Shown here piece after piece: positions 3,574 through 21,116 of a stretch of 34,676 nucleotides of DNA; within the stretch, counting starts at the first letter, position 1, and every line of letters starts with the position of its first letter. Source of the DNA: a virus. The stretch is from IMG/VR virus record IMGVR_UViG_3300006332_000635, positions 1 through 34,676 of that record; one strand, given 5' to 3'. The position numbers were made by a program, and so were the translations under genes. The notes under the pieces were generated by a model that was given only the letters and a program-made list of their open reading frames with translations, was not told the origin of the DNA and made no database searches.

Positions 3574-3601
3574 ATTATAACATAAAAAAACAGGGTGTCA
3601 A
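3574..3601 (-). promoter_or_regulatory. consensus sigma70 promoter inside a terminator
   Basis: On the minus strand, TTGACA at 3601-3596 and TATAAT at 3579-3574 are both perfect consensus hexamers, 16 bases apart. The predicted +1 is base 3567, the A of the methyltransferase ATG. The -35 hexamer lies in the loop and 3' arm of the terminator hairpin that ends the late operon, so one short element both ends one operon and starts the next. Use of the host sigma factor fits early expression of the DNA-modification operon. Confidence 0.8.
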
Positions 3602-3611
3602 TCGCACCCTG
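3584..3611 (-). terminator. rho-independent terminator of the fibre operon
   Basis: Read on the minus strand, CAGGGTG and CACCCTG form a perfect 7-bp stem around a 7-base loop (3611-3591), followed directly by seven T residues (3590-3584). It lies 68 bases past the stop of the giant subtilase gene and would end transcription of the late fibre operon. Confidence 0.85.
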
Positions 3612-3678: not shown

Positions 3679-6600
3679 CTACCTAATCTCAAATGTTTTT
3701 ACATCAGTACGATCAACACCTTCACCTTGAGCTGTTAGTTTATATTCAACAGGTGATATAGCAACATTTGGAGCTAGTTCTATTAGACCAGTATCTTCAT
3801 TAACCTCTCTTGTTTTAGGACCAATCTGACTAGCCCAATCGAGATCAGCAGAATTTCCAAAGACTGTAGAGAATCTTCCATCAATTTTATATCCCACTTG
3901 AGCAGGTCTAAACTTCTCAGTTCCAGGAAGATCTAGAGAGGAGAATATTCTCGTACCAGTTGTATCTAGAACCTCAAATCCAACTACTAGAGGGTTTCTA
4001 GTACCATCAAAAGGAGCACCCATAGGAACACCATCTTGATCATTAGGATTATTCCGAAGTCTTACTGTTAGAGTTATCTCCATTGTTGTTGAACCTGGTC
4101 CTGCTGAAGGAAAAGAAACTGGTATATCAGCAACTTGATTTTCTACTACCTCTTCATCAACTACATGATTAGCAAATCCATCATGTCCTCTATAATCACT
4201 GGTATAAACTGCATTAGTTTTATTATAAGTAGCAGAATTCCAATCTATTTGTGCTACGTTATCAGCCATGACTTTGAGTTTAAAGGTTCCTGGAGTAACC
4301 TTTATAGCACCTTTTTTAGCCCTATTATCTGTTGTTAAAGTAAATTTATATACTTGAGTTTGCCAAACAGTAGATGGAACAGCATCTCCAGTTTGCCAAC
4401 CAGCTGGGAAATTATTAATATAGATCTCAGTAAGACTTGGAGTAACACCAACTTCTCTCAAAAATGTATGCCAGAATTCATTATGAGCTCTATACATTTT
4501 TCCTTCATCAGTTACTAAATCTTGAGCCCAACCATTTTCTACTGACGCAGTACCATGAATACCTGTTTGATAAGCTTTTGCCCAATTTGAATCTGCTAAA
4601 CCTGCTTGTGCGTTAGCACTATTCAATAAAGTAATCTCAGCATCATCATCAGGACTTGTTCCATCCCTTAACTTAATTTCCAAGAGATCGGCACTAACTC
4701 TTCCAAGCTCAAGAGTTGTACCATCTGATCCATCTCCATTATAAGCTTGATTTTGACCAGACTGAGCATGACCCTCAGTATTTGTATGTCTAAGATTATT
4801 CCAATCTAAAGTATAATCACCATTTTCTAGAGAACAATCTATTATTTCAGGTCCTCTATCTAATGTATACCTCACTGCTCCTGTACTGTCCTTAATTTCA
4901 ACACTACTAAATGGAACATTATCAATCTTACTACTATCTCTCTTCACAGAACGAAGTCTGAAGTTACATTTTGCTTCTGGAGTCTGTCCTGTAGGAGCAG
5001 TAACATGTAAAACCATACCTCTATTTGCACCATCATCAAATCTTACATAAGTTGGTAATGGAGTAATTTCTATAATAGGAGGATCTTCTCTTGGGTCTGG
5101 TTCAACTACTTGTTCTCTTCCATCACATTCTCCATCTCTATCCCCTTTTATATTTTCAGTAGTAATATCACCACTAACAACAAATGGCGATCCACAAACT
5201 GCTGGTCCACCATTACCACCAGTACCATCACTAGACTGACTACCTTCACCTTTTCCATCAGTATTCGCACCTGCTGCTCCCCATTCACCACCATTTCCAC
5301 CTTTTGATCCATCACTACCACATGCTCCACCACTTAAGGAACCTGATGAGCAACTTGGACATCCACCAGGAGATCCACCTTGTCCATCAGTAGTTGCTTG
5401 ATATAATCCTTTACCGTTTCCACCTCTACCACCTATACCCTGAGAAGCACCACTACCTGGTCCAATAGTATAAGAATAATCCTGATAACATCTCCACCAT
5501 TGTGAACTATGAGCTCTTGTTGTCTCTCCAGTTACAGGATCAGTTTCTGAATAGCATATACCACCTGATCCAGAAGATTCCGTAGACCAACCAGAAGGAC
5601 AACCCCATCCACTAAGATTAAATCCTCCACCTGGAGCAACAGGGCATATTGATACAGTAGTATAATTCCTACCAGATTCTACACAACTTCCATTAGAACC
5701 TGGTGCACCCATGGCTCCACTTTCACCACCACCTCCTCCACCATAAAGCTGTCCGTCTTTATGAACATAGATGAAAGTTGTAGAACCTGTATGTTTTACT
5801 TTTAAACCAGTTCCACCATGCTTACCTGGATCACTTGATCCTTTAGGTCCACTAGTTCTATATCCACCAACTCCACCAGATCCAAGAACCCTACCATTAA
5901 CAAAAATAACAGAGTTACGAATAGATAGTGTAGGTTCTTCTAATCTAGCACCAGGTGTTTTATCAAAAGAACCACTAGTTAATGATCCTTGAGTTCCACC
6001 AGTTCCTGTAGCATCAGAATAGCATGTAGCATTTATGAATATTCTTTTGTCAACATTTCGTATTAAATTACCATCAGATCTACTAGTAGTATCTCTATGA
6101 TTTCTATTATCCCAGTCAATACCTTCTGATCCATTCCACCTATTCATACTATAGTTTTTAATTATAGTTCCACCAACATTACTAATACTACCAACAGTAG
6201 CATAATATCTCTTAACTGATCCTCTAAAGTCACTCAATTTAAGATTGGTTCCACTACCAGAGAAAACTTCATTAGGATATGAATCAGGAGATATTTTAGT
6301 TGTTGTCTTATCACTTTCAAACTCATTTTCAGTAGCATTTGGAACATTAGCACTAGTTGTAGTAGGATTAGTATTTCTAAAATATTCAGATGCCTTTACT
6401 TGATTACCAACAGAATACCCATTTTTAAAATATCTTCCAATATCACTAAACTTAATTGGTACACTACCAGAAAAATATGGTCCAGCAGTCTCAACTGTAG
6501 TATTACCATTAGTATGGGTTCTCTTTATATTATCAGGAAAATTCTTACTATCATATCCACTAGTACCTGGTGTAAATGGATCTGTAACTGGTCCAGTTCC

Positions 6601-9600
6601 TCCAGCATTAGAAGTATCTTTTAATGTTAATGTTATTTTCTTTAATAAATTATTTCTAGCAGAATCTGAATGTATTTTTATCTCAAATGTTTCATCACCC
6701 TCAGTTAGATTATCCTCAGTAAATGTATGAGTTAAAGTTCCAATACTTCCATCAGCAGCAACAGTAAAAGTACCTTGAAGATCACCAGAACTTAAATCAC
6801 TAGAACTTAATCCAACTAATGACCAATATACAGTAGTTCCTTGTGCTACATTAGTAGAAGCAACTGTAGTTGTGAGAGTAGATCCTTCATTAACAGTAAA
6901 ATTACTAGGTACTAAAGTATAACTAGGATCACTAGAAGATGATCCAGGTAATCCTAGATTATCATCATTTAAATTTAAACGATAGAAAGCTCTTTGTTCA
7001 TCAATTATAAAATATCCATTTACAACAGTAATTTTAAAGTCGCCCCATGTTACTCCATCATCATCACTAATTTCTAGAATCTGATTGTCTGTAGAATCAA
7101 CTCTAAATCTATAATCACTTAAATTTGCAGGAACTAATTCACTAGTAGAAACTCTAATTGGATAATATCCATCTGCTAATGTTAATTCAACTGGTGTGCT
7201 TGAATCAGATTCTTGAAATTCTCTTATACCATGAATATCTACTTTATGAACAATTGATGGACTATTATGAGCAATTGTAAATCTCTCATTTATTGGTCTG
7301 ACAGCACTTATTCCACCACTAGAAGTTAAAGATTTATTTGGTGTGTTTGAGTATCCAGTATATTCTTTAATTACTCTTATGTCAGTTCCATATGCACTAT
7401 ATGATGCCATCCATTTTGGATCATTAGGATCTGTATCACTAGGAGTATATCCTTTATAAAAGGTATCTCCTTCAGCACTAATAGCACCATTACCTGCCTT
7501 CATATTTAATTTTAGTGTGGCAGCATCCCATTTTCTATTTTGCTGTAGAGCACAAGCAATTAATCCAGCAGATACAGGAGCAGCAGCAGAAGTTCCGCTA
7601 AATGACTTATCATGATAAGATTCTCCTGATGTTGGATTATTCTCTAATCTTTTATATCCACTAAATCCAACATTTCCTTGAGAACTATCATCTACATCTG
7701 TTGATGCTGCTAAAGTTTCATCCGCAGGAGCATAAAAGTCAACAAATGTTCCAGTATTAGTATAATCTCCTGATTTAGACCAAGCATCATCCCAATTACC
7801 AATAGGATTTGAACCTCTAACTACTTGACCACCCTGTGCTAGTGTTTCAGCATTTATATCAAAATCACTAGTTGATCCTTCTTTAAGTGACATATCATTT
7901 CCACTATCCCAACGATTGGTTCTGAATGCATCATCCATAGCACCAATCACAAATATTTGAGTATCTGGATCATATCCTACTTGTTGTGGGAAAGCAGCCC
8001 TATTAACAAAGTAATCATTGATCTTATTATCATAATCAGGATGACCTTCAGCAGCAAAATATTCACCATCATTACTAGCAGACCATACATATACAATTCC
8101 CTCTGATATAGCTTCTCTTATAGCAGCATTTTCAGTTGCTTTTCCAGAAGCCCATGCTGGAAGTTTTAATGAGTCGTACCTATACTTTGTAGGATCATCA
8201 GGATCTGTATTTGGTTCATAATATCTACTTAAATAATGTACCCATCCTGTGTTTTGAACATATTGCTTACGGGCATTGCCCTGCGAAGTTTGTCCAGTAT
8301 TAACTCCTCTATGACTAAAAGCAGGTTCTTTCATTGGTTGCCCATCTACTTGAGCATCAAAAGTACCAGATGTTCCTCTATAAACGTAAGTTCCTGCTTG
8401 AGGAACATAAACCCCTACACCACCATAAAGACCAATTGGAGAATTTATATCTATCCAATCACTCCAACTATTATTGACTATGGTTGGGTCTTTTCTCTCT
8501 TTAGGATCAGTTGATGATGAGAATTTTATATTATCTGGTTTAAATCTATGAAATAATTTTTCTAAATTAAAGAAAGTTGATCTCTCCATAAGTGGATTAC
8601 TTACAGACCACTTATTAGCATTAAAAGCCCATCCAAAATTCTTTCCATATGCTAATGAAGCAACAGGAGTTCCATGACTACCTAACCAGTCAACTGAAGT
8701 ATTAGCTCCTGGTATTGAAAATTCACTACCAGAAGCAAATGCTCTAGTATATAATTGATTAATAGCAGATTGAGATAATGAAACTTCTCCTTTCTCAGGA
8801 TTATTTGTACCACCAATCCTTTCTTTAAATGTTGTTGATCTATGGGTAATACCATTACACCACCAATTACGTGCCTCAGACTCAACAGGAACTGGAGTTC
8901 CATCCCATCTGTAAGTTAATCTATTTGTAGGATCAGCATCAAACCAATCTGGATCAAGATAATATGGAGAATCTAAAAATAGATCCAAAACACCAGATCT
9001 ACCATGTCTAGCTAAAACATTACCTGGAATGTAATGTGGAGGATCATCATCATGAGTAACAAATTCTGGATGACCAGTCCATACACCATCATCACAAATA
9101 ATTACGTCTGTATCATATCCATCATTAGTATAATCAACATTTGACGTTTTTATTTCATCAGAACTAGTAGTCCACGTATTACTAGTACCTCTTTGACATC
9201 TTAATAATTGATATCCAGTTCTATTTTTCTCTGCGTTTGTTGGATTTGATCTGGGTATATTAAAGGTAACATTACTGTCAACAGAATTTATGATCTGACC
9301 TTGACCAGTACCTCCATTATTGCTTGTGTCATACCTCATCAATCTCCATGCTATAGCACCTGGATTATGGTCCCATTGCTCTTTATCTGGATGAGGAGTT
9401 CCATCATTAGTTAAAAAATTACCATTTCTAACTGAATATGTTATTGTATGATTACCAGCAGTAAGATATCCCAAATTGATAACCTGAGCTCTTGTGAGAA
9501 GCGTAGTATCTAATGGTATTTCATTATCATTAGCATCGGTAAAGTTAGTAAAGTTACCAGTAGGATAAGCCTTTGTTATTCCATCTTGCTTAGTCCAGTC

Positions 9601-10212
9601 AATAGTTCCATACTCACCATCAATAACAATTTCCAACTGATATACAGCAGAAGAAGATAGAGTTATAATATTCGTAGCAGTTTGAGTAGAACCTCTAAGT
9701 GGATCTCCAGTAGTAGAAGGATTCGCAGGAATTGATGGGTAAACACCATAATCTGTTAGAAGTGGTAAAGTTGCCCAATAAGTCATAGCTGGACTAGATC
9801 CTGAACCAGCACTAACATGAACCCAATTAGTAGTTCCCTGATTAAGTTGACCAGTAGTTGCCATTAAAGAGTTAGCAACTTCGGTAGGAGGAGTGAGTGT
9901 ATGTAAAGACCTATAATTCTTTACAGCAGAAGTAAATCTATCAGTATTATAATTTATTTCAGATCTAACTTCTTCATGATATATTGGATTTAATTCAACA
10001 TAGTCAACATCTGGATGATTTCTTAATTCCTCAACTTCAGACAAAGATAATTGATATGTTCCTCTAGTCTCACTATGATCTGTTAAATCCTTACATGAAC
10101 ACACTCTTGTTGGTATATTAGATTCTTGAGTTCCATCACTAAGTAATTCTTGATGTATTTTCTGCCATGCTTCGGCAGATCTAGCCTTTACTTCCCAGTT
10201 TTTTCTTGCCAT
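3679..10212 (-). CDS. giant subtilisin-like protease / tail fibre protein (2177 aa)
   Basis: I use ATG 10212, with AGGA nine bases upstream; a TTG three bases earlier is possible. Residues 1-90 resemble a short I9-type propeptide (YQLSLSEVEELRNHPDVDYV). A subtilase (S8) domain spans about 360-900 with its catalytic set intact: Asp374 in IICDDGVWTGHPEF, His513 in GSHGTPVASLAYG, oxyanion Asn714 in WSASNDG and Ser875 in SGTSAAAPVSAG. Large insertions separate His from Asn. A Calx-beta-like segment follows (about 1085-1190, VNEGSTL and EGDETFEI), then a Gly-rich, Cys-containing stretch (about 1440-1700), then beta-rich C-terminal domains. There is no signal peptide, so it is probably delivered on the virion, last in the fibre operon. 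Likely role: a fibre or tip that cuts host surface protein or matures fibres. The protease call is firm; the virion location is inferred from context. Confidence 0.88.
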   Translation of the reverse strand: MARKNWEVKARSAEAWQKIHQELLSDGTQESNIPTRVCSCKDLTDHSETRGTYQLSLSEVEELRNHPDVDYVELNPIYHEEVRSEINYNTDRFTSAVKNYRSLHTLTPPTEVANSLMATTGQLNQGTTNWVHVSAGSGSSPAMTYWATLPLLTDYGVYPSIPANPSTTGDPLRGSTQTATNIITLSSSAVYQLEIVIDGEYGTIDWTKQDGITKAYPTGNFTNFTDANDNEIPLDTTLLTRAQVINLGYLTAGNHTITYSVRNGNFLTNDGTPHPDKEQWDHNPGAIAWRLMRYDTSNNGGTGQGQIINSVDSNVTFNIPRSNPTNAEKNRTGYQLLRCQRGTSNTWTTSSDEIKTSNVDYTNDGYDTDVIICDDGVWTGHPEFVTHDDDPPHYIPGNVLARHGRSGVLDLFLDSPYYLDPDWFDADPTNRLTYRWDGTPVPVESEARNWWCNGITHRSTTFKERIGGTNNPEKGEVSLSQSAINQLYTRAFASGSEFSIPGANTSVDWLGSHGTPVASLAYGKNFGWAFNANKWSVSNPLMERSTFFNLEKLFHRFKPDNIKFSSSTDPKERKDPTIVNNSWSDWIDINSPIGLYGGVGVYVPQAGTYVYRGTSGTFDAQVDGQPMKEPAFSHRGVNTGQTSQGNARKQYVQNTGWVHYLSRYYEPNTDPDDPTKYRYDSLKLPAWASGKATENAAIREAISEGIVYVWSASNDGEYFAAEGHPDYDNKINDYFVNRAAFPQQVGYDPDTQIFVIGAMDDAFRTNRWDSGNDMSLKEGSTSDFDINAETLAQGGQVVRGSNPIGNWDDAWSKSGDYTNTGTFVDFYAPADETLAASTDVDDSSQGNVGFSGYKRLENNPTSGESYHDKSFSGTSAAAPVSAGLIACALQQNRKWDAATLKLNMKAGNGAISAEGDTFYKGYTPSDTDPNDPKWMASYSAYGTDIRVIKEYTGYSNTPNKSLTSSGGISAVRPINERFTIAHNSPSIVHKVDIHGIREFQESDSSTPVELTLADGYYPIRVSTSELVPANLSDYRFRVDSTDNQILEISDDDGVTWGDFKITVVNGYFIIDEQRAFYRLNLNDDNLGLPGSSSSDPSYTLVPSNFTVNEGSTLTTTVASTNVAQGTTVYWSLVGLSSSDLSSGDLQGTFTVAADGSIGTLTHTFTEDNLTEGDETFEIKIHSDSARNNLLKKITLTLKDTSNAGGTGPVTDPFTPGTSGYDSKNFPDNIKRTHTNGNTTVETAGPYFSGSVPIKFSDIGRYFKNGYSVGNQVKASEYFRNTNPTTTSANVPNATENEFESDKTTTKISPDSYPNEVFSGSGTNLKLSDFRGSVKRYYATVGSISNVGGTIIKNYSMNRWNGSEGIDWDNRNHRDTTSRSDGNLIRNVDKRIFINATCYSDATGTGGTQGSLTSGSFDKTPGARLEEPTLSIRNSVIFVNGRVLGSGGVGGYRTSGPKGSSDPGKHGGTGLKVKHTGSTTFIYVHKDGQLYGGGGGGESGAMGAPGSNGSCVESGRNYTTVSICPVAPGGGFNLSGWGCPSGWSTESSGSGGICYSETDPVTGETTRAHSSQWWRCYQDYSYTIGPGSGASQGIGGRGGNGKGLYQATTDGQGGSPGGCPSCSSGSLSGGACGSDGSKGGNGGEWGAAGANTDGKGEGSQSSDGTGGNGGPAVCGSPFVVSGDITTENIKGDRDGECDGREQVVEPDPREDPPIIEITPLPTYVRFDDGANRGMVLHVTAPTGQTPEAKCNFRLRSVKRDSSKIDNVPFSSVEIKDSTGAVRYTLDRGPEIIDCSLENGDYTLDWNNLRHTNTEGHAQSGQNQAYNGDGSDGTTLELGRVSADLLEIKLRDGTSPDDDAEITLLNSANAQAGLADSNWAKAYQTGIHGTASVENGWAQDLVTDEGKMYRAHNEFWHTFLREVGVTPSLTEIYINNFPAGWQTGDAVPSTVWQTQVYKFTLTTDNRAKKGAIKVTPGTFKLKVMADNVAQIDWNSATYNKTNAVYTSDYRGHDGFANHVVDEEVVENQVADIPVSFPSAGPGSTTMEITLTVRLRNNPNDQDGVPMGAPFDGTRNPLVVGFEVLDTTGTRIFSSLDLPGTEKFRPAQVGYKIDGRFSTVFGNSADLDWASQIGPKTREVNEDTGLIELAPNVAISPVEYKLTAQGEGVDRTDVKTFEIR

Positions 10213-10224
10213 CAATAATTATCC

Positions 10225-12420
10225 TTAAGTTAGAGAGTTCCAAGACGATCCATCATAATATTGTATTTGAGATGTCGAACTATTCCATATTATGGATCCT
10301 GGTTCTAGATTCACTAAATTACCTCGTTCAGTAGTAGTAATTTGTGGTAATTTCAAGAATCTAGTTATATTTACACCTGCTCTTGCGAAATCAGCACCAC
10401 AAGTTGCTACTGTAGTTCCTATACCAACTGATCCTGTACCAGCAATGGAACCAGCAACAGTTAAAGTAGAAGAGGTAACAGAAGTTCCTATACCAACAGC
10501 AGAAAATAATGCTCTACTAAATTGAGCATCTATTGCTCCATTACCAGCATCAATAATATTCTCACGTGCAGTTCCAATCGCAATAGCACCAACTTCTACA
10601 GTATTGAAAACATCAATATTAGCAAAAGTAGATATACCAGCAGAGGGTCGATATATATCAGAATTAGTTAAAAGTGCTGGTGGTTGTACATTACCTCCAA
10701 TGAGTTGCCCTTGATCTATTTCTAAATTACCAATAACCCTAACACTTCCTGTAAATGTAGATACACCAACTACATCCAATTGAACTTCAGGATCTGTTTT
10801 ATTAATTCCCAAATGACCTTTATAAGAAAGAGTCATTAATTTAGAATTAGTTTGTCCATATAACCAGTTGAATCCACCAGTACCAATACCATTAAAGTTA
10901 CCAGCATGGATATATGAATTAATATCACCAAGATCACCATTTATTATATCAAGTGTCTTATCCTCATTTCCAAATCTTATCTGTGCTGTACTTTCACCAA
11001 TACCAGCTAATGAACTTTGATTTTGTCCTATACTTATTGTTGCGTGTTCCTTTCCAACAATATGGACTGTTGAGATTCCAGTAGAATAAACTTCAAGTGA
11101 TCTTGTAGGATTATTAACACCTATTCCTAATGAATTGGTAACATGTCCTGTGGTTACTGTAGTAATACCAAGTACAGCTCTACTCGATTCTAATTCAGTA
11201 ATAGTTCCTACACCACTTGTAACCTCTACATTTTCAGATGTTACTTGTGCGAATGTAGATGTACCAGAAGTAACATCACCAGTAATATCACCAACAAATT
11301 TAGTAGCAGTTATAACACCAACAGAATGTAAATTATTAATTTTAGCAGTAGCATTTGTAATAATAGCATTACCAACTAAAGTAGCTCCAGAAGCTGATAA
11401 GTAATATAACTCTTGAGGTGAGTCTTCTTGTATTGTTATTTCAACATATGCTCCAGCAGTTCCTTGAGCACCAACAACATTTACACCACCACCATAAATC
11501 TTAGTACCTGCTTCATCATAATAAAATCTAAGTGGATAAGCAGTATTAGTACTATCACTTTGATCAAATCTATATGTTCTGCCAGGAGTAAAACTTAATA
11601 CAGGTGATTCTCTTCCATCTATGTAATATCCATTAGCATTACCCTGACCAGAATATCTATGATTAGTTGTCTTAGCAACAACAGTAGTAACTAAATTAGT
11701 AACTGCTCCATGAGGATAACTAGCAAGAGTTACTCCCTCAATTGCAGGTGTTGTTACTATTCCTGTTACATGAAGATCTGATGTGGTAACAATACCTGTA
11801 TTATGGACATAGCTTGATTCTACTTGTGTAATAGTAGACTCAGAACTTGTAATATCACCAGTAACATTTCCTTTAAATGTCGTAGCAGTAACAACACCAG
11901 TTGCTACAATACCACCTTCAGAATTAATCCCTACCCCCTTATCGAAAGCATTTGAATTATTATTACCACCGATCTGCAGAGTATGTCTAGGATCATCAGT
12001 TCCAACACCCACATTACCAGCAGCATATATGCTAATAAATCCCAATCCAACATCTTTATCAACCCACTGAGATGTTGGAATATTTTCTAAATATTGACCA
12101 TCTCCATAATAAGTAACTGTTTCTCCAACATTCTCAGCAGTTACAACACCAACAGGTTCTCCTATTTTAACACCAGATCCACTAGTTGAACCAGTCATAC
12201 TGGTATTCTCAACAGTCAGACTAGTCGCTGTAATTGATTCAAAATTAGCATTTGTACCAGTTATATTTCCAGATGTTTTTATATTACCACCATAAACTTC
12301 CAATAGTTCAGTAGGAATAGTAGTTCCTATACCAACTGCTCCTAATTGATTAACGACTAAATTATCATCGTCAACTTGAACACCACTACGGAAATTAAAT
12401 GATTTCTTGATATTCGCCAT
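10225..12420 (-). CDS. tail fibre protein with GIGT-type repeats (731 aa)
   Basis: The protein opens with MANIKKSFNFRSGVQVDDDN and is built from short beta-rich repeats of the form GIGTxxPxxxLxV, for example AVGIGTTIPTELLEVYGG near residue 28, NVGVGTDDPRHTLQIGG near 136, and variants near 425 and 550. Longer units with TATxFxGxxTGD recur at about 175-215 and 370-410. It ends with a small domain (IQYYDGSSWNSLT) common at phage fibre ends. Such proteins form trimeric fibres in T4-like marine phages. It has its own late promoter at 12439-12446, and only 12 bases separate its stop from the subtilase ATG. Which fibre (long, short or accessory) cannot be told from sequence. Confidence 0.78.
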   Translation of the reverse strand: MANIKKSFNFRSGVQVDDDNLVVNQLGAVGIGTTIPTELLEVYGGNIKTSGNITGTNANFESITATSLTVENTSMTGSTSGSGVKIGEPVGVVTAENVGETVTYYGDGQYLENIPTSQWVDKDVGLGFISIYAAGNVGVGTDDPRHTLQIGGNNNSNAFDKGVGINSEGGIVATGVVTATTFKGNVTGDITSSESTITQVESSYVHNTGIVTTSDLHVTGIVTTPAIEGVTLASYPHGAVTNLVTTVVAKTTNHRYSGQGNANGYYIDGRESPVLSFTPGRTYRFDQSDSTNTAYPLRFYYDEAGTKIYGGGVNVVGAQGTAGAYVEITIQEDSPQELYYLSASGATLVGNAIITNATAKINNLHSVGVITATKFVGDITGDVTSGTSTFAQVTSENVEVTSGVGTITELESSRAVLGITTVTTGHVTNSLGIGVNNPTRSLEVYSTGISTVHIVGKEHATISIGQNQSSLAGIGESTAQIRFGNEDKTLDIINGDLGDINSYIHAGNFNGIGTGGFNWLYGQTNSKLMTLSYKGHLGINKTDPEVQLDVVGVSTFTGSVRVIGNLEIDQGQLIGGNVQPPALLTNSDIYRPSAGISTFANIDVFNTVEVGAIAIGTARENIIDAGNGAIDAQFSRALFSAVGIGTSVTSSTLTVAGSIAGTGSVGIGTTVATCGADFARAGVNITRFLKLPQITTTERGNLVNLEPGSIIWNSSTSQIQYYDGSSWNSLT

Positions 12421-12460: not shown

Positions 12461-15400
12461 TTATTTTTTGAACCTCAGATCATGCTCTAAACCTTCAAGT
12501 CTCTTAGTTAATTCTTTAACAGATTCAACTAGAAGAGGAATAACTTTTTCATAATCAACAGCGTGAGTACCATCTTCTCTGATAGTATGTAAACCAGGAA
12601 GTCCAAGTCCTTGAATCTCCTGTGCTATCAAACCAGTATCTGCCTTTCCTTCCCAGTTAGATGCTTGATTCCAATTAAATGTATTACCACTAATTGTAAG
12701 AATTTTCTCTAATGGATTTTCAATAGGTGTAATATTATCCTTTAATCTATGATCTGAAGCACTATACGCAATAATATCACCAGTAACATCTAACTGTCCA
12801 GTTACTTTAGCACCACCAGTAACAGTTTCAAATACATGTGCTCCACTTCCACCATAGTACAATTTAACAGCACCATCAGACTTAGTATAGACTAACCCTT
12901 GTTCTGTATTATCTTTATTACCAATAACAACTCTATTATTACTTTGTAGATAAAGATGTGTGTTATCATCGGTAGCAGTAATTCTAAGATTATTATTAGA
13001 TGATTCAGAATCATGATAAATTGCTCCCTTTTTATTCGCAACAGTAGCACCACCAAAGCTCACTAACTTATTACTTGGGAAATGAGATCCACCATTAAAT
13101 ATTACATTACCAGCAAAGGATCCACTACCACCAACATTTAAAGCACCACCAATACCAACTCCACCAGCAGTAACAATAGCACCACTATTAGTGTTTGTTG
13201 AAGCAGCATTATTCTTAACACCTAATTTTCCACAAATATTAAGGTTCTTACCAATACTTGCCCCACCCTTAACTTGAAGAGCACCTTGTAAGGTTGATCC
13301 GCATACTATTTCATCATAATTTGATTCTGATTCTTCATCATCATTGTTTATATAAACAGTATGACTGGTTCCAACCTTTATTGTTTGAGATTGGAATAGA
13401 TTATTAACCCTAGTAATACCATTAAAGGTTACAGGACCATTGAACTGAGACAGAATCTGTTTAGAACTACCACCTTCAACAAGTAATCTCTCTTTAATGA
13501 TTACTTCATCAAATACAACACTTAACTTACTTGGATCTTCACCTGTTACAGTTGGAATTGGAATATCAAATGTAGTCTGCTGTCCACTATCTGCTGAAAT
13601 CTTAGTGTTTCCAATATAGAAATCACCCTTATCATTCATACCTGTGTAAACAACAGTACCACAAGAAGTTTCTTGTGATTGTGCTAAGAACTCTTCTCTT
13701 TCTGTTAGAGTTCTATCAGATATTTGTGGTAAACCAGTTGAATAGTTACCTGGTCCAAAACCAACATATTCAAACGTATGGTTTCCTGATCTTAGGATTG
13801 ACGGACGACGTAGTTCTGTCTGTGTACCACCTGTATTATTAACAGGTATCATTCTTTCATTCTTATCTACTTCATTACTCTCTCCATCTCTTGCTTCAAG
13901 TGTGATGTAGTTAGCAACAGCTGGATCATTTGTAGATGAGTTTACATAAGCATTTCTATTCTCAAGAATGAAATCAGCAATAACTTCCTTAGTGATTGAA
14001 AGTGACTTATCTTCTAGTCCTGTACCAATATCAGTTGTAGTAACTAAACCAACTACAGTATTACTTGCAACAGAGGTTGCTTCGTTTGGATCTTCAGTTG
14101 GGTTGTCCTTATCCAATACTGGATAGAGGTTGTTAATATTTTGTGAGAATGAGAACTGATCTACATTAGCGTTAGAGGGAGATATACTACCTTTAATAAC
14201 TGTCATGTAGTAGATACCATTTTGAACTGACTTGATTAGTTCTTGCTCAGTCTTAATATCGTAGATATAATATACATCCCCGTAAGACTGTCCCGTAGGT
14301 ACGTTCCTTGGTTGGATAACATAACCATTGATAGGTTCTCTTGATAGAGCTGAAGGTGAGCTGTCTACTTCATATCTGACTCTATAAGTTCTGTCTCTTG
14401 ATGATCTATTGTCAGGTACACGTTGCATATATGATGCACCAGTGAATAGTGCGTTAGCATAGAACGTATCATTACCAAGATGATAATGAATACCTCTATA
14501 ACCTGTGGCCGCTTGGACTGTTGCTGCACCAGATGTAGCAGCAGTAACCTTTACATACCATGTGTTTAACTGACTATCAAACTGCAGTGGATGATTAGGG
14601 TCACCAGGTGTGAAATTCTGTGTAGTAATATTAGTGAATGCACTATCAGCAGGTGATGAAGTACCATCAGGTGTAATCAAGGCCGCGAATGTGACTGTAG
14701 CAGATGATTCAATCAACGATACGTACAATACATCTTGCTTACGTGCACCAATATTGAAACCTTGTAGTTTGTATGGAGGTTTTGTAGCAGCAGAATTATA
14801 TCCATAGAGATATAATCTAGTATCAACAGGTCCGATGTATGACCATGTGATTGCACCATCACTGACTGTACCAGATGTATGTGTAGGAGCAGTTGAACCT
14901 GCTGTGACTGTACCAGATGCAGCAGCTAACTGAGCTGAATAATATGCATTACCATTGTATATACATGAATATCTACCAAGATCTGTGTTAAATGATGCAC
15001 CACTTGTCCATGTAGAGTTACCTGCGTTAGCGTTATACTGTACTTTTTGTACGTCTACAGCAACATATCCAACAGGAATTTCATTAATTGTACTCTTAAA
15101 TGCAGATTCAGATGCAGCAGTACTACCTCTATAACCTCTATTAAGTGTCAAAACACCAGTACCACTGTTGACTGCATCAACTTTATATGTCTCTACATTA
15201 TCAATAGTATTGAATCTAACGTAAGATCCCAGTGTTATACCATGATTATCATTGGCTGGCGTTGGAGTTGCCGTTTTGTTATCTTGTGTAACAGCAAATG
15301 TATAACCAGATGCAGCAGTATATGTACGTGCTAATTTCTGTGGAGGTATAATGTGTGTTATAGTACCAGCTTTATCCTGAGTGAATGGTGCTGACTTAAA

Positions 15401-16909
15401 TCCTTTTGCTCTTAACGCACAGGATCCGAAGTTTGAGTTGGAGTTAGTAATTGACTGGTCACCACCGCTAAGGGAGACAAAGTGATCAGCGAAACCAACA
15501 GCGAAAACAGAAACTGCCTGTATAACTGCGTCATTGGATACTTTAACATGGAAATTTCGATATGCAGTTTTGTATATACTGTCTCCATCAGTGTGTGAGC
15601 CAGCAATATATGATGAACCATCCCACTTAATGAAGGCATTATCATCTTTCTGAAGTGATACACCAGTAAACTGGGCAACAACCATGGATTTGAATCCAGT
15701 TGACTTGCTACCATCAGCGTGCATACCTTGCATACCCCATGTACTACGGAGTGAGCAGTTGAATATGTATGGTGATGAACTATCTACGTTATCAACTTCT
15801 ACTTCAACAGTGGATCCAGTTGCAGTTGGGTTACCAGATGGTGCTCCTGTGGTAGGATCTTTAATAATATATCTGAATGTTGTGGTAGTTGGTATCTCAC
15901 TGATATAATATGATCCATTAAATCTGGATGCATCAGTACCAGTCACACCACTGACAAGAACGGGAGTATTAACAGAGAACCCGTGAGGTGTTGTGGTTGT
16001 TACCTCAGCAGTTGTTGTGAATACGTTTGTGTTAACATAGTCAGTAACTACGCTAGAAATTTGTTTAGGACCTGAAGTATTAGGACCCACAATTCTATTT
16101 TCTTCTACCCTTGACTGTAATTCATCAGCAGTCAATACACTGGTAGAGTCAGGAATATCAGAGAATGCCTTAGCAACTTTCTGATAATATAAGTCTAAGT
16201 CTGTGACTGCAAGAGCAGCAGATGAAGTATCATTTACACCAGACTGAATGTTTGTACCATCAGCATACTCAAAACATGTTAGTTTATGGTGAGAATATGT
16301 TGGGGGTGATGATGCACTTGGTTGTGCAGGGTCTTTGTATACACCTGTACTAGGACCATCAAAGAATGAGAACTGCCAGAAATAACATCCACCAGTTACA
16401 CGGAAGATAGCACTACCTTCAATAGCACCAGCAGCTGGATCAGGAACATATAATGGTCTTAACTTAGTCTTTCTTAGATCCATACCCACGATGGATGTAC
16501 CTCTAGGTACTACGACTCCACCTTCTACTGAGTTAAATCTGTATAAAATATTGTTTGGATTAGGATTACCACTGCCATCAATGAGATCCATGTCGCTAGC
16601 TGACGATAGCTCAGAGATATCAGCAGACACATATGCCTGTCCAGATGCATTTTTACCTGGTCTGTTGTCAATAAAGTAGTCACCAGGATATAATACAATA
16701 CTAAATGACTCGAATGCATCATTATACTGTCCGCTACGATATGAGAAACGTGCAGCTTCTAGTAACGCCCTTTGTATACTCTTGAAAGGACGGTTAGGAG
16801 AGTTACCTCTATTGTCGAATGCGTCAGATGCATCAAAATCATCTGAGTTGACATATAGGCAACGTCCAGTTTTTGATGTAAAGACGTTCTTTAGTCTAGT
16901 AAGTGCCAT
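12461..16909 (-). CDS. large tail fibre / baseplate fibre protein with C-terminal S74 chaperone domain (1482 aa)
   Basis: The N-terminus (MALTRLKNVFTSKTGRCLYV, then NRPFKSIQRALLEAARFSY and LYPGDYFIDNRPG) belongs to a large structural protein family of T4-like cyanophages and looks like the start of a beta-helix. The middle is long, beta-rich and threonine/glycine-rich. The last 100 residues are an intramolecular chaperone of the endosialidase type (S74): SDHRLKDNI at 1385-1393, GLIAQEIQGLGLP, VDYEKVIPLLVESVKEL and a terminal coiled coil. In this family a Ser-Lys dyad (here Ser1385 and Lys1390) cuts off the chaperone after trimerisation. The gene starts 16 bases after the preceding stop, without its own promoter. 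It is probably a trimeric receptor-binding or baseplate-attached fibre; the exact position in the virion is unknown. Confidence 0.82.
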   Translation of the reverse strand: MALTRLKNVFTSKTGRCLYVNSDDFDASDAFDNRGNSPNRPFKSIQRALLEAARFSYRSGQYNDAFESFSIVLYPGDYFIDNRPGKNASGQAYVSADISELSSASDMDLIDGSGNPNPNNILYRFNSVEGGVVVPRGTSIVGMDLRKTKLRPLYVPDPAAGAIEGSAIFRVTGGCYFWQFSFFDGPSTGVYKDPAQPSASSPPTYSHHKLTCFEYADGTNIQSGVNDTSSAALAVTDLDLYYQKVAKAFSDIPDSTSVLTADELQSRVEENRIVGPNTSGPKQISSVVTDYVNTNVFTTTAEVTTTTPHGFSVNTPVLVSGVTGTDASRFNGSYYISEIPTTTTFRYIIKDPTTGAPSGNPTATGSTVEVEVDNVDSSSPYIFNCSLRSTWGMQGMHADGSKSTGFKSMVVAQFTGVSLQKDDNAFIKWDGSSYIAGSHTDGDSIYKTAYRNFHVKVSNDAVIQAVSVFAVGFADHFVSLSGGDQSITNSNSNFGSCALRAKGFKSAPFTQDKAGTITHIIPPQKLARTYTAASGYTFAVTQDNKTATPTPANDNHGITLGSYVRFNTIDNVETYKVDAVNSGTGVLTLNRGYRGSTAASESAFKSTINEIPVGYVAVDVQKVQYNANAGNSTWTSGASFNTDLGRYSCIYNGNAYYSAQLAAASGTVTAGSTAPTHTSGTVSDGAITWSYIGPVDTRLYLYGYNSAATKPPYKLQGFNIGARKQDVLYVSLIESSATVTFAALITPDGTSSPADSAFTNITTQNFTPGDPNHPLQFDSQLNTWYVKVTAATSGAATVQAATGYRGIHYHLGNDTFYANALFTGASYMQRVPDNRSSRDRTYRVRYEVDSSPSALSREPINGYVIQPRNVPTGQSYGDVYYIYDIKTEQELIKSVQNGIYYMTVIKGSISPSNANVDQFSFSQNINNLYPVLDKDNPTEDPNEATSVASNTVVGLVTTTDIGTGLEDKSLSITKEVIADFILENRNAYVNSSTNDPAVANYITLEARDGESNEVDKNERMIPVNNTGGTQTELRRPSILRSGNHTFEYVGFGPGNYSTGLPQISDRTLTEREEFLAQSQETSCGTVVYTGMNDKGDFYIGNTKISADSGQQTTFDIPIPTVTGEDPSKLSVVFDEVIIKERLLVEGGSSKQILSQFNGPVTFNGITRVNNLFQSQTIKVGTSHTVYINNDDEESESNYDEIVCGSTLQGALQVKGGASIGKNLNICGKLGVKNNAASTNTNSGAIVTAGGVGIGGALNVGGSGSFAGNVIFNGGSHFPSNKLVSFGGATVANKKGAIYHDSESSNNNLRITATDDNTHLYLQSNNRVVIGNKDNTEQGLVYTKSDGAVKLYYGGSGAHVFETVTGGAKVTGQLDVTGDIIAYSASDHRLKDNITPIENPLEKILTISGNTFNWNQASNWEGKADTGLIAQEIQGLGLPGLHTIREDGTHAVDYEKVIPLLVESVKELTKRLEGLEHDLRFKK

Positions 16910-16924
16910 CTGATAATACTCTGG

Positions 16925-17932
16925 TTATGAAGCTACCTCAGCAGTTTCCTCGAAACCAAGCAAGGTTGCGGTTACAGCTGCGGTTGATTTAACATAGATT
17001 GACTGATAAGCACCAAGTACTATTCCACCCAGTTCAAATATAGAAGCGTCATTGATTGACTTTTGTTTAACAAGATATTGATGCTCTTGTATCATTGATA
17101 CTCCAGACACCAATAATTCAACACCATTTGCATCAATAAACTCAGTTGTAGGTGTTGTGTTCGATGCAGCAATTCTGTTAACAGTAGTTGCTACGGGTCT
17201 ATGACGGTTTTGATGTGCTCTAGTGAGGTTATTGTTACCCAATTCCCTTACTTCTTGGTTGATATCACGGAACTTTAATAGACTATAATCTAAATTGTTC
17301 CTAAATTCATGGTTATCAAAGTAAATGATACCTCTGAGGTTATCAAAGAATTTGATTCTACCAGAGTTTCCAAGAGTTGTACCACTACCTGCAAATGATG
17401 TACCTGCAGATGCAGTTGCACCACCAGCACCAGTATACTGGATATCTCCAGACTGAGGATATAGAGCATCAGCTCTTGATAGTCCTCTTACCCATAATCT
17501 ATTGTTACTTGAATCCCAGTACTGTACAAATGCACTCTGTGATGTTGGAGTCATGGCAGGATTTGTCCATGTTAACTGCTCACCTGCAACAAACGAACCA
17601 GTTACACCACCAACATCTATAACAATTGATGATGTATATCCTCCCTCAGGGAATGAAAAACCAAGATAATTTGATGGTGCACCAGGTTGTGATGCAGCAG
17701 CGTCTAATTGTATTACATCTGTCTGTTCAATTATCCCTACGTCAACTGCAGCAGCACCACCAGTATTATTTGATATTACTAATTTCGCACTCACCATTGT
17801 ACCACCAGGACAGGTGTAAAAAGGATATTCGTTAGCAGCAACAGCAAGAGAGTTTGCAGGTTGTGTATCGTTTGTGTAAGGTGTTACTGTTGGGGTGAAT
17901 GAACCAAGAACACCATTTTGCTTAGTAGCCAT
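16925..17932 (-). CDS. virion structural protein, probably fibre-associated (335 aa)
   Basis: The protein starts MATKQNGVLGSFTPTVTPYT and is rich in Ala, Thr, Gly and Val with alternating hydrophobic residues, as in beta-sandwich virion proteins. Residues 210-280 (IIYFDNHEFRNNLDYSLLKF and TRAHQNRHRPVATTVNRI) are more charged. No enzyme motif is present. It resembles hypothetical structural proteins found in the fibre clusters of T4-like cyanophages. The start is two bases past the stop of the 526-aa protein and has little Shine-Dalgarno sequence, suggesting translational coupling. A role as an adaptor or a decoration of the fibre is inferred from position only. Confidence 0.68.
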   Translation of the reverse strand: MATKQNGVLGSFTPTVTPYTNDTQPANSLAVAANEYPFYTCPGGTMVSAKLVISNNTGGAAAVDVGIIEQTDVIQLDAAASQPGAPSNYLGFSFPEGGYTSSIVIDVGGVTGSFVAGEQLTWTNPAMTPTSQSAFVQYWDSSNNRLWVRGLSRADALYPQSGDIQYTGAGGATASAGTSFAGSGTTLGNSGRIKFFDNLRGIIYFDNHEFRNNLDYSLLKFRDINQEVRELGNNNLTRAHQNRHRPVATTVNRIAASNTTPTTEFIDANGVELLVSGVSMIQEHQYLVKQKSINDASIFELGGIVLGAYQSIYVKSTAAVTATLLGFEETAEVAS

Positions 17933-17934
17933 GG

Positions 17935-19515
17935 TTAATTAAAGGAATGGAAGTAGACTTTTGCTCTGGACGTACCTCCAGATGTATTTGCATTTAATGT
18001 AGACTGATTACCAGTTTGAGGATCAGTAAGTAAGATCTCTCTGGCTAATATCTTACCACCTGTGCTTGTGACAGGGTTGGTAGTGGTAACATAAAAGTCA
18101 CCGTCAATGTTTGAATCACCAGATACATCTAATCTCTTTGTGGGAGACTTGGCAATACCTAGATTACCATTAGTATCTAGCACCATTTGGTCGGTGCCTG
18201 TGTTGTCAGTAAAGTGTAAACCAATACCAACTACACCTTTTTGTAAGATCAACTTACCTGCAGATGCATTACCTGCTATGATAGTAGAACCTGTAGAATA
18301 TATAGAACCTTCAACTTCAAGGTTGTAGGTAGTAGGTAATCTACCTATACCAACTTTGGCAGAACCTGTACCTCCTAGTTGAAAATTGCCTGAGCCATTG
18401 GCTGTGATGTTACCGCCAAATACTGCGTCACCACTAGCAGAAGCCAGAGTGAACTTATCTGTAGCGATAGCAATGTCACCGCTACCAGTGATGGATGTGA
18501 CCGCATCTATTGCTCCTCCTATGTTTATGCCTGTTGCGGATGTTGTAATACGTGGTGAATCGTTATGATAAACGATAGATTCAGTGCTACTTGCCTTGAA
18601 ATACTTAGTAGTATGATTTGAAGCATTTAATTCAACAGCATCACTTGACACAAATAACTGAGACGCAGTGCTAGTAATATATGATGTATCAGTTCCATTT
18701 GCATAATTAAACGTAAAGTCATCGTCAGTTCCCATCTTGATTGACTTGTCATCAACCATTTCAATATGGTTGTTAGCAATTAAGTCACCTGTTAAAGTAA
18801 TTGTTTGCTGTGCAACAACTGTATTAGCAAAGGTTGCTGACGCACTGAACGTGGCAGCAGCATTAACAGTAACACTATCGGATGCTCCATCTCCTAGAGT
18901 TGTATCACCATTGATCTGAATCGTCTCAACGGTTAACGTTCCACTAAATGCAGCATTATTGAGAGTTTTATTGTTTAATGTCTGTGTAGCAGCTAAGGTA
19001 ACTATAGTGTCAGCTGTGGCAACTGCACCATTAGAAGGTAAAACGTAAGTGTGCTGTACACCTGTTGGTATATCAGCTGAACTAAACCTTGCAACTTTAG
19101 TATTATCCGAAGAGTTAGGTATAATGAATGAAGTATCATCAATCGCTAAAACAGAACCTAGACGTATCTTACCAGTACCTTGTGCAGATATAGTAAAATC
19201 TAAGTTTGTGTCGGCACTGTCCCTTGCCTGTATATTGAGTGTGCTTCCTACTTTCTGTAGATTTAATCTAGCGTCACCCATTGCTAGTCCGATTTGTCCC
19301 TGTTCTTCAGAGAATAGACCTGTTTTTGTTTTCAACTCAAACTGAACACCTGGCACAGTATATGTACCAGAAGGTATTGCACGGAATATACTTCCGACTG
19401 CAGATCTTTTATTCTGATCAGTTGGGTCTGAGTTATCAAGTAATAGCAGTGTATCGGAACTCGATACGGTTCCTGCTTCTAATAATGTAAGGTCAGATAT
19501 CTTACGTGTTGCCAC
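17935..19515 (-). CDS. tail fibre protein, first gene of the late fibre operon (526 aa, GTG start)
   Basis: The start codon is GTG at 19515, with GGGATT eight bases before it. The N-terminus (ATRKISDLTLLEAGTVSSSD) is the KISDLT type seen at the attachment end of many marine phage fibres. The rest is beta-repeat: TLNNKTLNNAAFSGT near 180, then GIGRLPTTYNLEVEGS near 400 and LGIAKSPTKRLDVSGD near 458, the same GI-x-P-x-L-V unit as in the 731-aa fibre. There are no catalytic motifs and no chaperone domain. A perfect TATAAATA late promoter lies 29 bases upstream. It is likely a trimeric fibre; which one is unknown. Confidence 0.75.
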   Translation of the reverse strand: MATRKISDLTLLEAGTVSSSDTLLLLDNSDPTDQNKRSAVGSIFRAIPSGTYTVPGVQFELKTKTGLFSEEQGQIGLAMGDARLNLQKVGSTLNIQARDSADTNLDFTISAQGTGKIRLGSVLAIDDTSFIIPNSSDNTKVARFSSADIPTGVQHTYVLPSNGAVATADTIVTLAATQTLNNKTLNNAAFSGTLTVETIQINGDTTLGDGASDSVTVNAAATFSASATFANTVVAQQTITLTGDLIANNHIEMVDDKSIKMGTDDDFTFNYANGTDTSYITSTASQLFVSSDAVELNASNHTTKYFKASSTESIVYHNDSPRITTSATGINIGGAIDAVTSITGSGDIAIATDKFTLASASGDAVFGGNITANGSGNFQLGGTGSAKVGIGRLPTTYNLEVEGSIYSTGSTIIAGNASAGKLILQKGVVGIGLHFTDNTGTDQMVLDTNGNLGIAKSPTKRLDVSGDSNIDGDFYVTTTNPVTSTGGKILAREILLTDPQTGNQSTLNANTSGGTSRAKVYFHSFN

Positions 19516-19543: not shown

Positions 19544-19551
19544 TATTTATA
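19544..19551 (-). promoter_or_regulatory. T4-type late promoter of the fibre operon
   Basis: The minus strand reads TATAAATA at 19551-19544, a perfect match to the T4 late -10 consensus. Transcription would start near 19538, giving a 23-base leader before GTG 19515. The element includes the TAA stop codon of the CpeT-like gene (19549-19547), so coding sequence and promoter overlap. Confidence 0.78.
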
Positions 19552-19987
19552 CATTCTTTTTGAATGTAAAAAATCCATCAGAACCTTCCCAATACCCTTT
19601 ATCCCATGTATGGTACTCACCATTGAATAGTTTTGCCTTACTATCGAGTGGTTTGTCTTTCCATGTACATCCTTCAGAGGAGTGTCCTAGAAAAAACTTC
19701 CCATTTTCAATGTAAGAGAAGATCATATCACATGCAGGATTCTTTACTATTATAATAGGTACATGAGCACCAATAACATGAGGTTGTGTTACCTCAACTA
19801 CCTGTTCTCTGTATGGTTTGTCCATATAATTGTATCTTGAACTTGTCCGAAACTTTCTTTCTTCAATACGTTCATGTACTACAAATATATGTGCCCACTT
19901 TGTAGGATTAGATGATGCCTGTCCCCAGTTATCAAACTTACCTTCAAACCAATCGCAGAATAAATCTAGTTCCATTTTATCGGACAT
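19547..19987 (-). CDS. cpeT: CpeT/CpcT-like phycobiliprotein lyase family protein (146 aa)
   Basis: The protein follows the CpeT/CpcT pattern in order: DWFEGKFDNWGQ near residue 12 (family: WMxGEFDNREQ), a P-x-x-x-H-I segment, YMDKPYREQVVEV near 54 (family: PYRQRV), a GC segment near 105 and FNGEYHTWDKGYW near 120. T-type lyases are small beta-barrels that bind and attach bilin chromophores to phycobiliproteins; a cyanophage CpeT is known to bind bilin. The sequence is divergent, so bilin binding should not be assumed. It overlaps the preceding gene by 22 bases and starts at ATG 19987. Its stop lies inside the late promoter of the fibre operon. If it is functional it supports a phycobilisome-bearing or phycoerythrin-containing cyanobacterial host. 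Confidence 0.68.
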   Translation of the reverse strand: MSDKMELDLFCDWFEGKFDNWGQASSNPTKWAHIFVVHERIEERKFRTSSRYNYMDKPYREQVVEVTQPHVIGAHVPIIIVKNPACDMIFSYIENGKFFLGHSSEGCTWKDKPLDSKAKLFNGEYHTWDKGYWEGSDGFFTFKKNV

Positions 19988-20649
19988 TTACCACTACTCA
20001 CTCTTTGTTTTATTACATCCCATGATTTAAAAGGTGCAAACTTACGCAATAGATTAGTCTGTTGATTCGATCTATACCATGCGTCTGGAGGTTCCTTTTG
20101 CTCTATTATGAAATCAGGATCACTCTTTTTAGAATATAATCTGAAATAATATAATGGAGTATTCTTCTTAAGCATTAGGTTGATATCAGTATCTAGTACC
20201 TTAAGACCAACCACTAGTGGTCTATGCCACTCTGATATAGGAAAAGTACCTGGTACCAATTCAAATCCATGTCTAGACAATAAAGGATGTGGTATCTGTT
20301 CCACCCATACATCTTTCTCGTTTGTCCAGAACATATAATTCAACCTCAATTGTATCTCAGGATATTCTCCCCCAAGCCAATTCTCTGGTACATGAAAATA
20401 CTGATCGTATGCATCCTGAGAGAGATCTGTGGTTATTCTTTTTTCTTTTGTATCTACCTTGATTCCAACATCAAATGGTTGTTTAACCACCCAACAGTTC
20501 TCTGTCCATTTTTTCCATGCAGGACATTTTGTGTGATCGTACCCTGTGCCATAACCACCCCGAAATTTTTTCGGAGTTGCATGGAATTCATCAGGGAATT
20601 TCGTATCACGTTCAGTGCCAATATTATAGTCCCAAAAGACTTTCTTCAC
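19966..20649 (-). CDS. conserved phage protein of unknown function (227 aa, GTG start)
   Basis: The start is GTG 20649, overlapping the acyl carrier protein stop by GTGA; the purine-rich GGAAGAGGAAGA just before it is a strong ribosome site. The protein is rich in Trp, Tyr, Pro and charged residues and has no signal peptide or membrane span. Notable segments are [20 protein letters not shown] near 43, [19 protein letters not shown] near 118, then [11 protein letters not shown] and TPLYYFRLY. The E-x-x-P, PG-x-F and W-x-RP spacing reminds me of a DUF6065-like group found in bacteria and marine phages. No reaction is known. Its tight coupling to the acyl carrier protein gene suggests it might act on, or with, a carrier-bound substrate; that is inference. 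Confidence 0.72.
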
Positions 20650-21116
20650 TCTTCCTCTTCCAGTGCTTCATCTAATGCTTCTGCTATTTTATCGTTTGAT
20701 GGCAAATTAGATAAAGGTTTCTTTGTCATGAAAGGACTATCAGGATGTGGAACTTCAGTTTGTTTACTCTTATACTTAGCCACATTGATCTTCTTCCTCT
20801 TACCCTTGTTTGCCTTGCATTTCTTAATTACTTCAATGGCATCGCCAACGGTAACGATATTACCTGCTTCCTCGTCAGGTATTTCTATATTGAAACACTC
20901 CTCTAAGAACATGACAAGTTCTACCATCGCTAGACTGTCTAGCATCAGGTCATCAGCAAGTTTACTATCCCAAGTAACTTCTGCTTCAAGTTCTTGTGTT
21001 TCTCCCAAAGTCTCAACGATTGCTAACTTAGCAACTTTGAGCATGGTCGCTTTAGAAATCCTCTTACTGTCCTTAAGGATTTGCTTAATTTCTGAATATG
21101 TTGAGTTATAAGACAT
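20646..21116 (-). CDS. acpP: acyl carrier protein with N- and C-terminal extensions (156 aa)
   Basis: Residues about 25-100 are a canonical acyl carrier protein. [15 protein letters not shown] carries Ser61, the usual phosphopantetheine site in the DSL motif, and helices II-III ([18 protein letters not shown]) are close to E. coli AcpP, including IPDEEA and a following TVGDAIEVI helix. A carrier protein of this kind holds acyl chains as thioesters for fatty-acid or related synthesis. The phage protein differs by a 24-residue N-terminal addition and a 55-residue tail, first basic ([18 protein letters not shown]) and then acidic ([11 protein letters not shown]). It starts with a TAATG overlap on the small gene before it and ends with GTGA on the next gene, so it is embedded in the late operon. 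Whether it enters the virion or alters host lipids is unknown. Confidence 0.88.

Follow-up and report, generated by a model that had tools for sequence, protein, structure and literature searches.

Subtilases of the S8 family are already annotated in the fibre gene clusters of cyanophages such as S-SSM7, P-SSM2 and S-WAM2, where they are stand-alone proteins, and phage P-HM2 encodes a different, long fibre-like subtilase, PHM2_106. Here we describe a gene of IMG/VR virus record IMGVR_UViG_3300006332_000635 (positions 1 to 34,676; this stretch of 34,676 nucleotides (nt) was analysed as a whole and is referred to below as the window) whose 2177-amino-acid (aa) product combines a subtilase with fibre-type C-terminal regions. 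Unless marked otherwise, coordinates are those of the window and refer to its minus strand. The gene occupies positions 3679..10212, exactly as given in a preliminary description of this DNA, which had not stated the strand; the open reading frame (ORF) of 2177 codons runs from an ATG at 10212 to a stop codon at 3681-3679, and a ribosome-binding-like AAGGA is found at 10226-10222, ahead of the ATG. From the N-terminus, the protein comprises an I9-like prodomain, a beta insert, the S8 subtilase, a linker domain, a Calx-beta-like domain, a Gly/Cys-rich adhesin-like tip and C-terminal beta domains. It was assigned to phrog_9158 (function not known; 7.4e-53), a profile that also matches PHM2_106 and gp144 of phage S-SCSM1.

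The stand-alone cyanophage proteases (T4-GC cluster 292, with P-SSM2_297 and S-SSM7_232; the "subtilisin-like serine protease" of S-WAM2; the "peptidase S8 family domain" protein of S-SCSM2R) belong to the same subtilase family as the window protein and share its I9-like start, but they are only 552-760 aa long and lack the Calx-like domain, the adhesin tip and the insert between prodomain and protease. They are located in fibre gene clusters beside gp9 or the proximal fibre gene; in S-SSM7, Sf-FS3 and P-SSM2 the family protease lies between the fibre genes and one of these two. S-SCSM1 gp144 (1411 aa) shares the profile family, the triad motifs and the presence of fused C-terminal binding domains, but its C-terminal half is laminin-G/concanavalin-like rather than Calx-like with a Gly/Cys-rich tip, and its fusion is an independent one on the tree. 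PHM2_106 (T4-GC 519, 1827 aa, locus L129:26808-32291) is likewise a long fibre-like protein with a prodomain-like start and full subtilase motifs (IIDSGV, GHGT, SAGNG, GTSFSGP). It carries a cupredoxin-like insert between prodomain and protease, and it differs in being only a remote match to the family of the window, in its other operon (between baseplate-region genes and gp13) and in its Ig-like C-terminal domains. PHM2_106 is recorded only as containing PF07686. An "S8 peptidase (T4-GC518)" has been reported in P-HM1/P-HM2 (Sullivan et al. 2010); we rejected T4-GC518 as the P-HM2 S8 peptidase, this being a 111-aa ORF without a subtilase motif, while the subtilase is found in the neighbouring GC519. 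The published assignment thus seems to be one cluster number off.

P-SSM2_035 (T4-GC 32) presents the opposite case: it occupies the same operon position as the window gene, after two upstream fibre genes, and lacks the protease but has a homologous adhesin region. Tailspike polysaccharide depolymerases and gp38-type tip adhesins provide a works-like analogy only, as an enzyme or a receptor binder at the fibre end (leads PMC12892980, PMC6957217), and the depolymerases are glycosidases or lyases, in contrast to the proteolytic enzyme of the window. Among the papers searched on phage virion subtilases, none was directly relevant. What is new compared with these systems is the protease-stalk-tip fusion, its split counterpart, the exchange of modules, the invariance of catalytic residues in more than 100 sequences and a homologue that a published virion proteome probably contains under another name.

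The subtilase domain and its conservation

The preliminary description had proposed a complete subtilisin protease with Asp374, His513, Asn714 and Ser875 in proper subtilase motifs. All four residues are where it placed them, catalytic Asp374 (9091..9093) within VIICDDGV, catalytic His513 (8674..8676) within GSHGTPVAS, the oxyanion-hole Asn714 (8071..8073) within WSASNDG and the nucleophile Ser875 (7588..7590) within FSGTSAAAP. The Pfam family Peptidase_S8 covers residues 372-901 (E=4.9e-11; score 42.9 against a cut-off of 21.8). An AlphaFold2 model of residues 1-960, built on 31 sequences, has a mean predicted local distance difference test score (pLDDT) of 66.9, with the secondary-structure elements of the core that surround the triad mostly at 80-95. 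The top Foldseek matches of this model are proteinase-K-type subtilases (E=4.2e-9, probability 1.00, template modelling (TM) score 0.68 on the target). Since the Pfam match and the modelled fold agree, the S8 assignment is not a chance one, and the subtilisin claim holds. The family profile, when run against PDB sequences, also matched Mirolase and subtilisins (4.6e-9). The whole catalytic domain, residues 316-945 (7378..9267), is lengthened by insertions to about 630 residues, against about 280 for an S8 core; the insertions hold two family-specific motifs, DAPYYIDP..F.ADP..RL..RWDGT and GWAFNANKW.

IMG/VR was scanned twice: the first scan yielded 40 loci, the second 522 stretches coding for relatives, and the 80 best of these were retained. 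The alignment contained 109 non-redundant sequences, i.e., the window and 108 relatives. As can be seen from it, neither the triad nor the oxyanion Asn is ever replaced: Asp is present in 109/109 and His in 109/109 sequences, Asn in all 106 and Ser in all 105 sequences that cover these positions, tandem paralogues included. No catalytically dead relatives were found among the sampled sequences, so the triad, whose loss in close relatives the preliminary description had named as evidence to the contrary, is kept wherever it is covered. At the same time, the protease regions of the relatives are only 33-49% identical to that of the window. Strict retention of catalytic residues in a drifting sequence indicates selection on the domain for enzymatic function. 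We consider it very probable that the gene is expressed as a member of the fibre set and that the subtilase it encodes is catalytically competent.

Probable virion association, fusions and module exchange

The homologue S-SCSM1 gp144 (profile E 2.7e-76; Pfam S8 2.9e-26; the top viral structural match) carries the record note "baseplate wedge subunit (virion protein)". In that phage, 45 proteins were found by mass spectrometry in CsCl-purified virions (PMC9602691). About 47 features of the S-SCSM1 record are tagged "(virion protein)", compared with the 45 of PMC9602691; the tagged features include three non-structural proteins named in that paper, and several predicted structural proteins are untagged. 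On the basis of this comparison between the tag set and PMC9602691, we read the tag as a mark of detection by mass spectrometry. The homologue thus appears to be virion-associated, which so far speaks against the other contrary evidence named in the preliminary description, absence from virions together with purely intracellular expression. A protease of this kind may already be listed in the published S-SCSM1 virion proteome as a "baseplate wedge subunit". Operon position, neighbours, fusions and the tag on the homologue together give good support to the reading of the preliminary description, by which the window gene encodes a fibre-type protein, probably virion-borne, with a predicted-competent protease; for the virion location the support is indirect, by way of the homologue.

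Most relatives are simpler than the window protein. Complete ORFs number 98; in 78 of them the protease stands essentially alone, and 14 carry a C-terminal extension of at least 300 aa. The domain order of the window recurs in L001, L052 and the 5′-truncated L002. In a split form (L003, L004, L054-L056, L058, L060 and L084), 7-9 Calx-like repeats close the protease protein, and the ORF directly behind it, of about 1050-1180 aa, encodes an adhesin in which two plastocyanin-like domains occupy the place of the protease. The tree gives the large-protein clade a support of 1.0, and the other fusions (L042, L037, L040, L120 and S-SCSM1) are placed elsewhere; it thus follows that the protease-fibre fusion arose repeatedly. 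The baseplate wedge-fibre connector phrog_677 adjoins the protease gene downstream in 34/64 and upstream in 16/62 of the neighbours scanned.

The tip and the protease of the window have separate histories. From residue 1441 onward, the window protein is 94-99% identical to L001 and L002, with a synonymous divergence (dS) of at most 0.05, whereas the protease is 51% identical to theirs with a dS of 0.75-0.78. Against L052, the tip (33-55% identity) is not better conserved than the protease (47%). The unequal divergence of tip and protease from L001 and L002 indicates that modules have been swapped. The ratio of nonsynonymous to synonymous divergence (dN/dS) of the protease gene was 1.03, 0.83 and 0.88 in three close pairs, these being pairwise ratios rather than a formal test; for other genes of the same contigs it was mostly 0.02-0.6, with one 134-aa ORF at 0.92. 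A high dN/dS with fixed catalytic residues fits diversifying contact with hosts.

Two observations on the cluster architecture stand beside these results. The split-form adhesin (L003:14453-17608, with equivalents in L004, L054-L056, L058, L060 and L084) starts with its two plastocyanin-like domains. Copper-site motifs, His and Cys-x2-His-x3-Met, lie in them (Pfam Copper-bind 4.8e-7), and they are possible copper-binding domains on phage fibres. Nine loci (L010, L080, L083, L088, L092, L094, L113, L128 and L017) have two different subtilase genes per fibre cluster, with triads intact where covered.

A proposed role at adsorption and its alternatives

Enzymes with which phages breach polysaccharide layers are well known. 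To our knowledge, there is hardly any record of a virion-borne protease that attacks surface proteins of the host, and we know of few marine cyanophages whose receptor has been identified. The reading to which we incline, with some reserve as regards the complete chain of steps, is that the product is a receptor-tethered, virion-borne subtilase that cuts a host-surface protein, its presumed substrate, at adsorption. It would be a virion-associated tail-fibre or adhesin protein of a marine T4-like phage. Its N-terminal half would be a proteinase-K-type subtilase, presumably active and made as a zymogen that is processed at an I9-like prodomain, and its C-terminal half a receptor-binding adhesin, joined by a Calx-beta-like stalk and probably acting at the tip. 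The gene would be transcribed late, as the TATAAATA box described below suggests; the predicted fold points to cytoplasmic folding helped by the prodomain, and both the genomic context and the homologue support assembly into the fibre/baseplate region. The tip would then bind the cell, and the tethered protease may cut a surface protein such as a receptor-covering layer, a porin or a pilus protein. Such cleavage could aid irreversible attachment or penetration, in the way that tailspike depolymerases cut polysaccharide.

The results suggest that certain marine phages arrive at the cell surface with a protein-cutting enzyme of their own. As a tentative extension, marine T4-like phages may broadly carry subtilases of a phage-specific branch as "proteolytic tailspikes", in which a modular and quickly diversifying protease is tethered to an exchangeable receptor-binding tip and opens protein surface layers as depolymerase spikes open capsules, the fusion having arisen several times independently. 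Should the protease act at the receptor, knowing what it cuts would give a lead to the protein barrier or receptor of abundant ocean bacteria, and the swaps of protease and tip modules would be natural experiments on host-range determinants.

Several points weigh against a role at adsorption. The stand-alone majority of relatives (78/98) has no adhesin and would also fit a fibre-maturation enzyme. If the N-terminal prodomain is removed, the anchoring of the protease end is left unexplained. The virion tag belongs to a distant homologue. The stand-alone pair L021/L027 has an ordinary dN/dS of 0.34, and recombination or relaxed constraint may be other causes of the high ratios. The Gly/Cys-rich tip, a probable receptor-binding adhesin by composition and gene order, is poorly modelled (pLDDT 51) and matched no solved structure. 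Finally, in the literature searched, protease activity, cleavage or a substrate is documented for no member of the family.

The same facts can be read in terms of a fibre-maturation protease, which would act in the infected cell during assembly, trim itself and neighbouring fibres and stay in the virion as a spent structural part. Its gene lies inside the fibre operon and in relatives is mostly a stand-alone one beside the baseplate-fibre connector, the product has no signal peptide, and one fibre of the operon bears an S74 chaperone domain, which belongs to a family known for self-cleavage; two tandem subtilase paralogues, as found in several loci, would suit the processing of several fibres. 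However, an adhesin fusion swapped independently of the protease and a dN/dS near 1 fit host interaction better, and many related phages (P-HM1, P-HM2) build their fibres without this protease family. We regard maturation as unlikely, though it deserves to be kept in view. It is improbable that the enzyme serves self-processing only, i.e., that its sole target is its own prodomain or its junction to the adhesin, with release or activation of the tip as the outcome. Such a task would hardly call for an enzyme of 600 residues that has diversified strongly across hundreds of phages, and the stand-alone forms hold nothing cuttable but the prodomain. In favour of this reading, nearly all relatives possess an I9-like prodomain, and the split-gene relatives do have protease and adhesin as separate polypeptides.

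Cytoplasmic synthesis without a signal peptide would also be expected of an intracellular host-takeover or lysis factor that is not part of the virion, but the late fibre operon, the fibre-type C-terminus, the adhesin fusion and the homologue tagged as a virion protein make this very improbable. A catalytically dead domain kept as a structural scaffold has nothing direct in its favour beyond the stretching of the S8 core by insertions, and is scarcely credible when every covered relative, tandem paralogues included, keeps all four catalytic residues while the rest of the domain has drifted to about 35% identity.

Operon, accessory modules and host

Four fibre/tail genes precede the protease gene, with intergenic gaps of 2-40 nt back to a T4-late-promoter-like TATAAATA box (19544..19551) at the head of the fibre genes. 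The box is located about 30 nt ahead of the first fibre gene and is the sole exact copy on the minus strand; since about 3 copies per strand are expected by chance, it is weak evidence by itself. Directly after the protease gene follows an intrinsic terminator (3591..3611; CAGGGTGCGATTGACACCCTG then T7; 0.1 expected in shuffles), and a perfect sigma-70-type promoter, TTGACA-16-TATAAT (3574..3601), before the following methylase/helicase genes marks the operon boundary. The gene is thus the last of a late fibre operon, in agreement with the preliminary description. Immediately upstream of it, with a 12-nt gap, is the gene of a 731-aa tail protein (10225..12420; PHROG 3269 tail protein, 2.7e-90), preceded by that of a 1482-aa tail fibre with a C-terminal S74 chaperone domain (12461..16909; PHROG 529 tail fibre; Pfam S74 1.1e-10) and by two more fibre-operon genes, of 335 aa and 526 aa (16925..19515), at the positions of P-HM2 GC459 and GC458.

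The propeptide-like start and the absence of a signal peptide, both noted earlier, were borne out. The inhibitor-I9-like prodomain (residues 1-84; 9961..10212) is N-terminal in nearly all relatives, and residues 1-75 are modelled as beta-alpha-beta-beta-alpha-beta with a pLDDT of about 90; the Pfam I9 match (0.058) is weak and below the cut-off. No signal peptide was found, the top 15-residue hydropathy within the first 65 aa being -0.38. The beta-rich insert between prodomain and protease (residues 106-315; 9268..9897) is confined to the large-protein clade. Sister phages carry a related segment in their free-standing adhesin ORF, and a P-SSM7 gene gave a weak tblastn match (1e-3). A PA14 identity of this insert was rejected: it has no Pfam match, and the resemblance came only from the names of Foldseek hits.

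Behind the protease lies a conserved post-catalytic linker domain of the large-protein clade (residues 946-1088; 6949..7377), followed by a single Calx-beta-like domain (residues 1089-1205; 6598..6948). The Calx-beta-like segment of the preliminary description is a real repeat unit, present in 7-9 tandem copies in the split-gene relatives, but the copy of the window has no Pfam Calx-beta match; PF03160 was matched at E<=1 in 3/13 repeat copies tested, at best with 1.3e-3. Both the Calx-beta and the PA14 labels remain resemblances. The adhesin base region (residues 1206-1440; 5893..6597) is common to the separate adhesin ORF of relatives and P-SSM2_035. Next come the Gly- and Cys-rich tip, with about 27% Gly (residues 1441-1740; 4993..5892), and C-terminal beta-rich domains (residues 1741-2177; 3682..4992), for which the model is of low confidence. 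A comparison of the C-terminal half and tip with solved structures gave no usable match. Neither sequence nor structure matched the solved gp38, the likeness of the tip to gp38-type polyglycine adhesins being one of Gly-rich composition only.

The best DNA matches of the fibre genes are in P-HM1, P-HM2 and MED4-213, which are Prochlorococcus phages, and CpeT and acyl-carrier-protein genes are found in the operon as in P-HM1/P-HM2; the host of the window phage is therefore likely a picocyanobacterium. A scan of the genomes of 84,980 species for the protease matched only four contigs, all of them from marine single-amplified genomes (SAGs) or metagenome-assembled genomes. One of these, L130 (Pelagibacteraceae SAG AG-345-F21), which has the same cassette of three fibre genes, is plainly phage DNA and is no proof of a cellular gene. 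A cellular origin of the protease was accordingly rejected. At most, L130 hints at a host, and the family may have hosts other than picocyanobacteria.

Within the baseplate/fibre gene run, the acyl-carrier-protein-like gene is located at 20646-21116 (PP-binding 8.6e-7) and the CpeT gene at 19547-19987. Between them lies a 227-aa ORF with a GTG start and no Pfam match (19966-20649), while P-HM1 has nothing between these two genes. A VanY/M15 D-Ala-D-Ala carboxypeptidase domain (3.3e-8) is found in a protein of the baseplate region (27890-29734), and the S-SCSM1 protein of that function is tagged as a virion protein. The product of a 145-aa gene on the plus strand (31375-31812) has a TnsA-like endonuclease N-terminal domain (9.8e-24). 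Synteny with P-HM2 suggests that this gene may correspond to the one labelled gp4 head completion in that phage.

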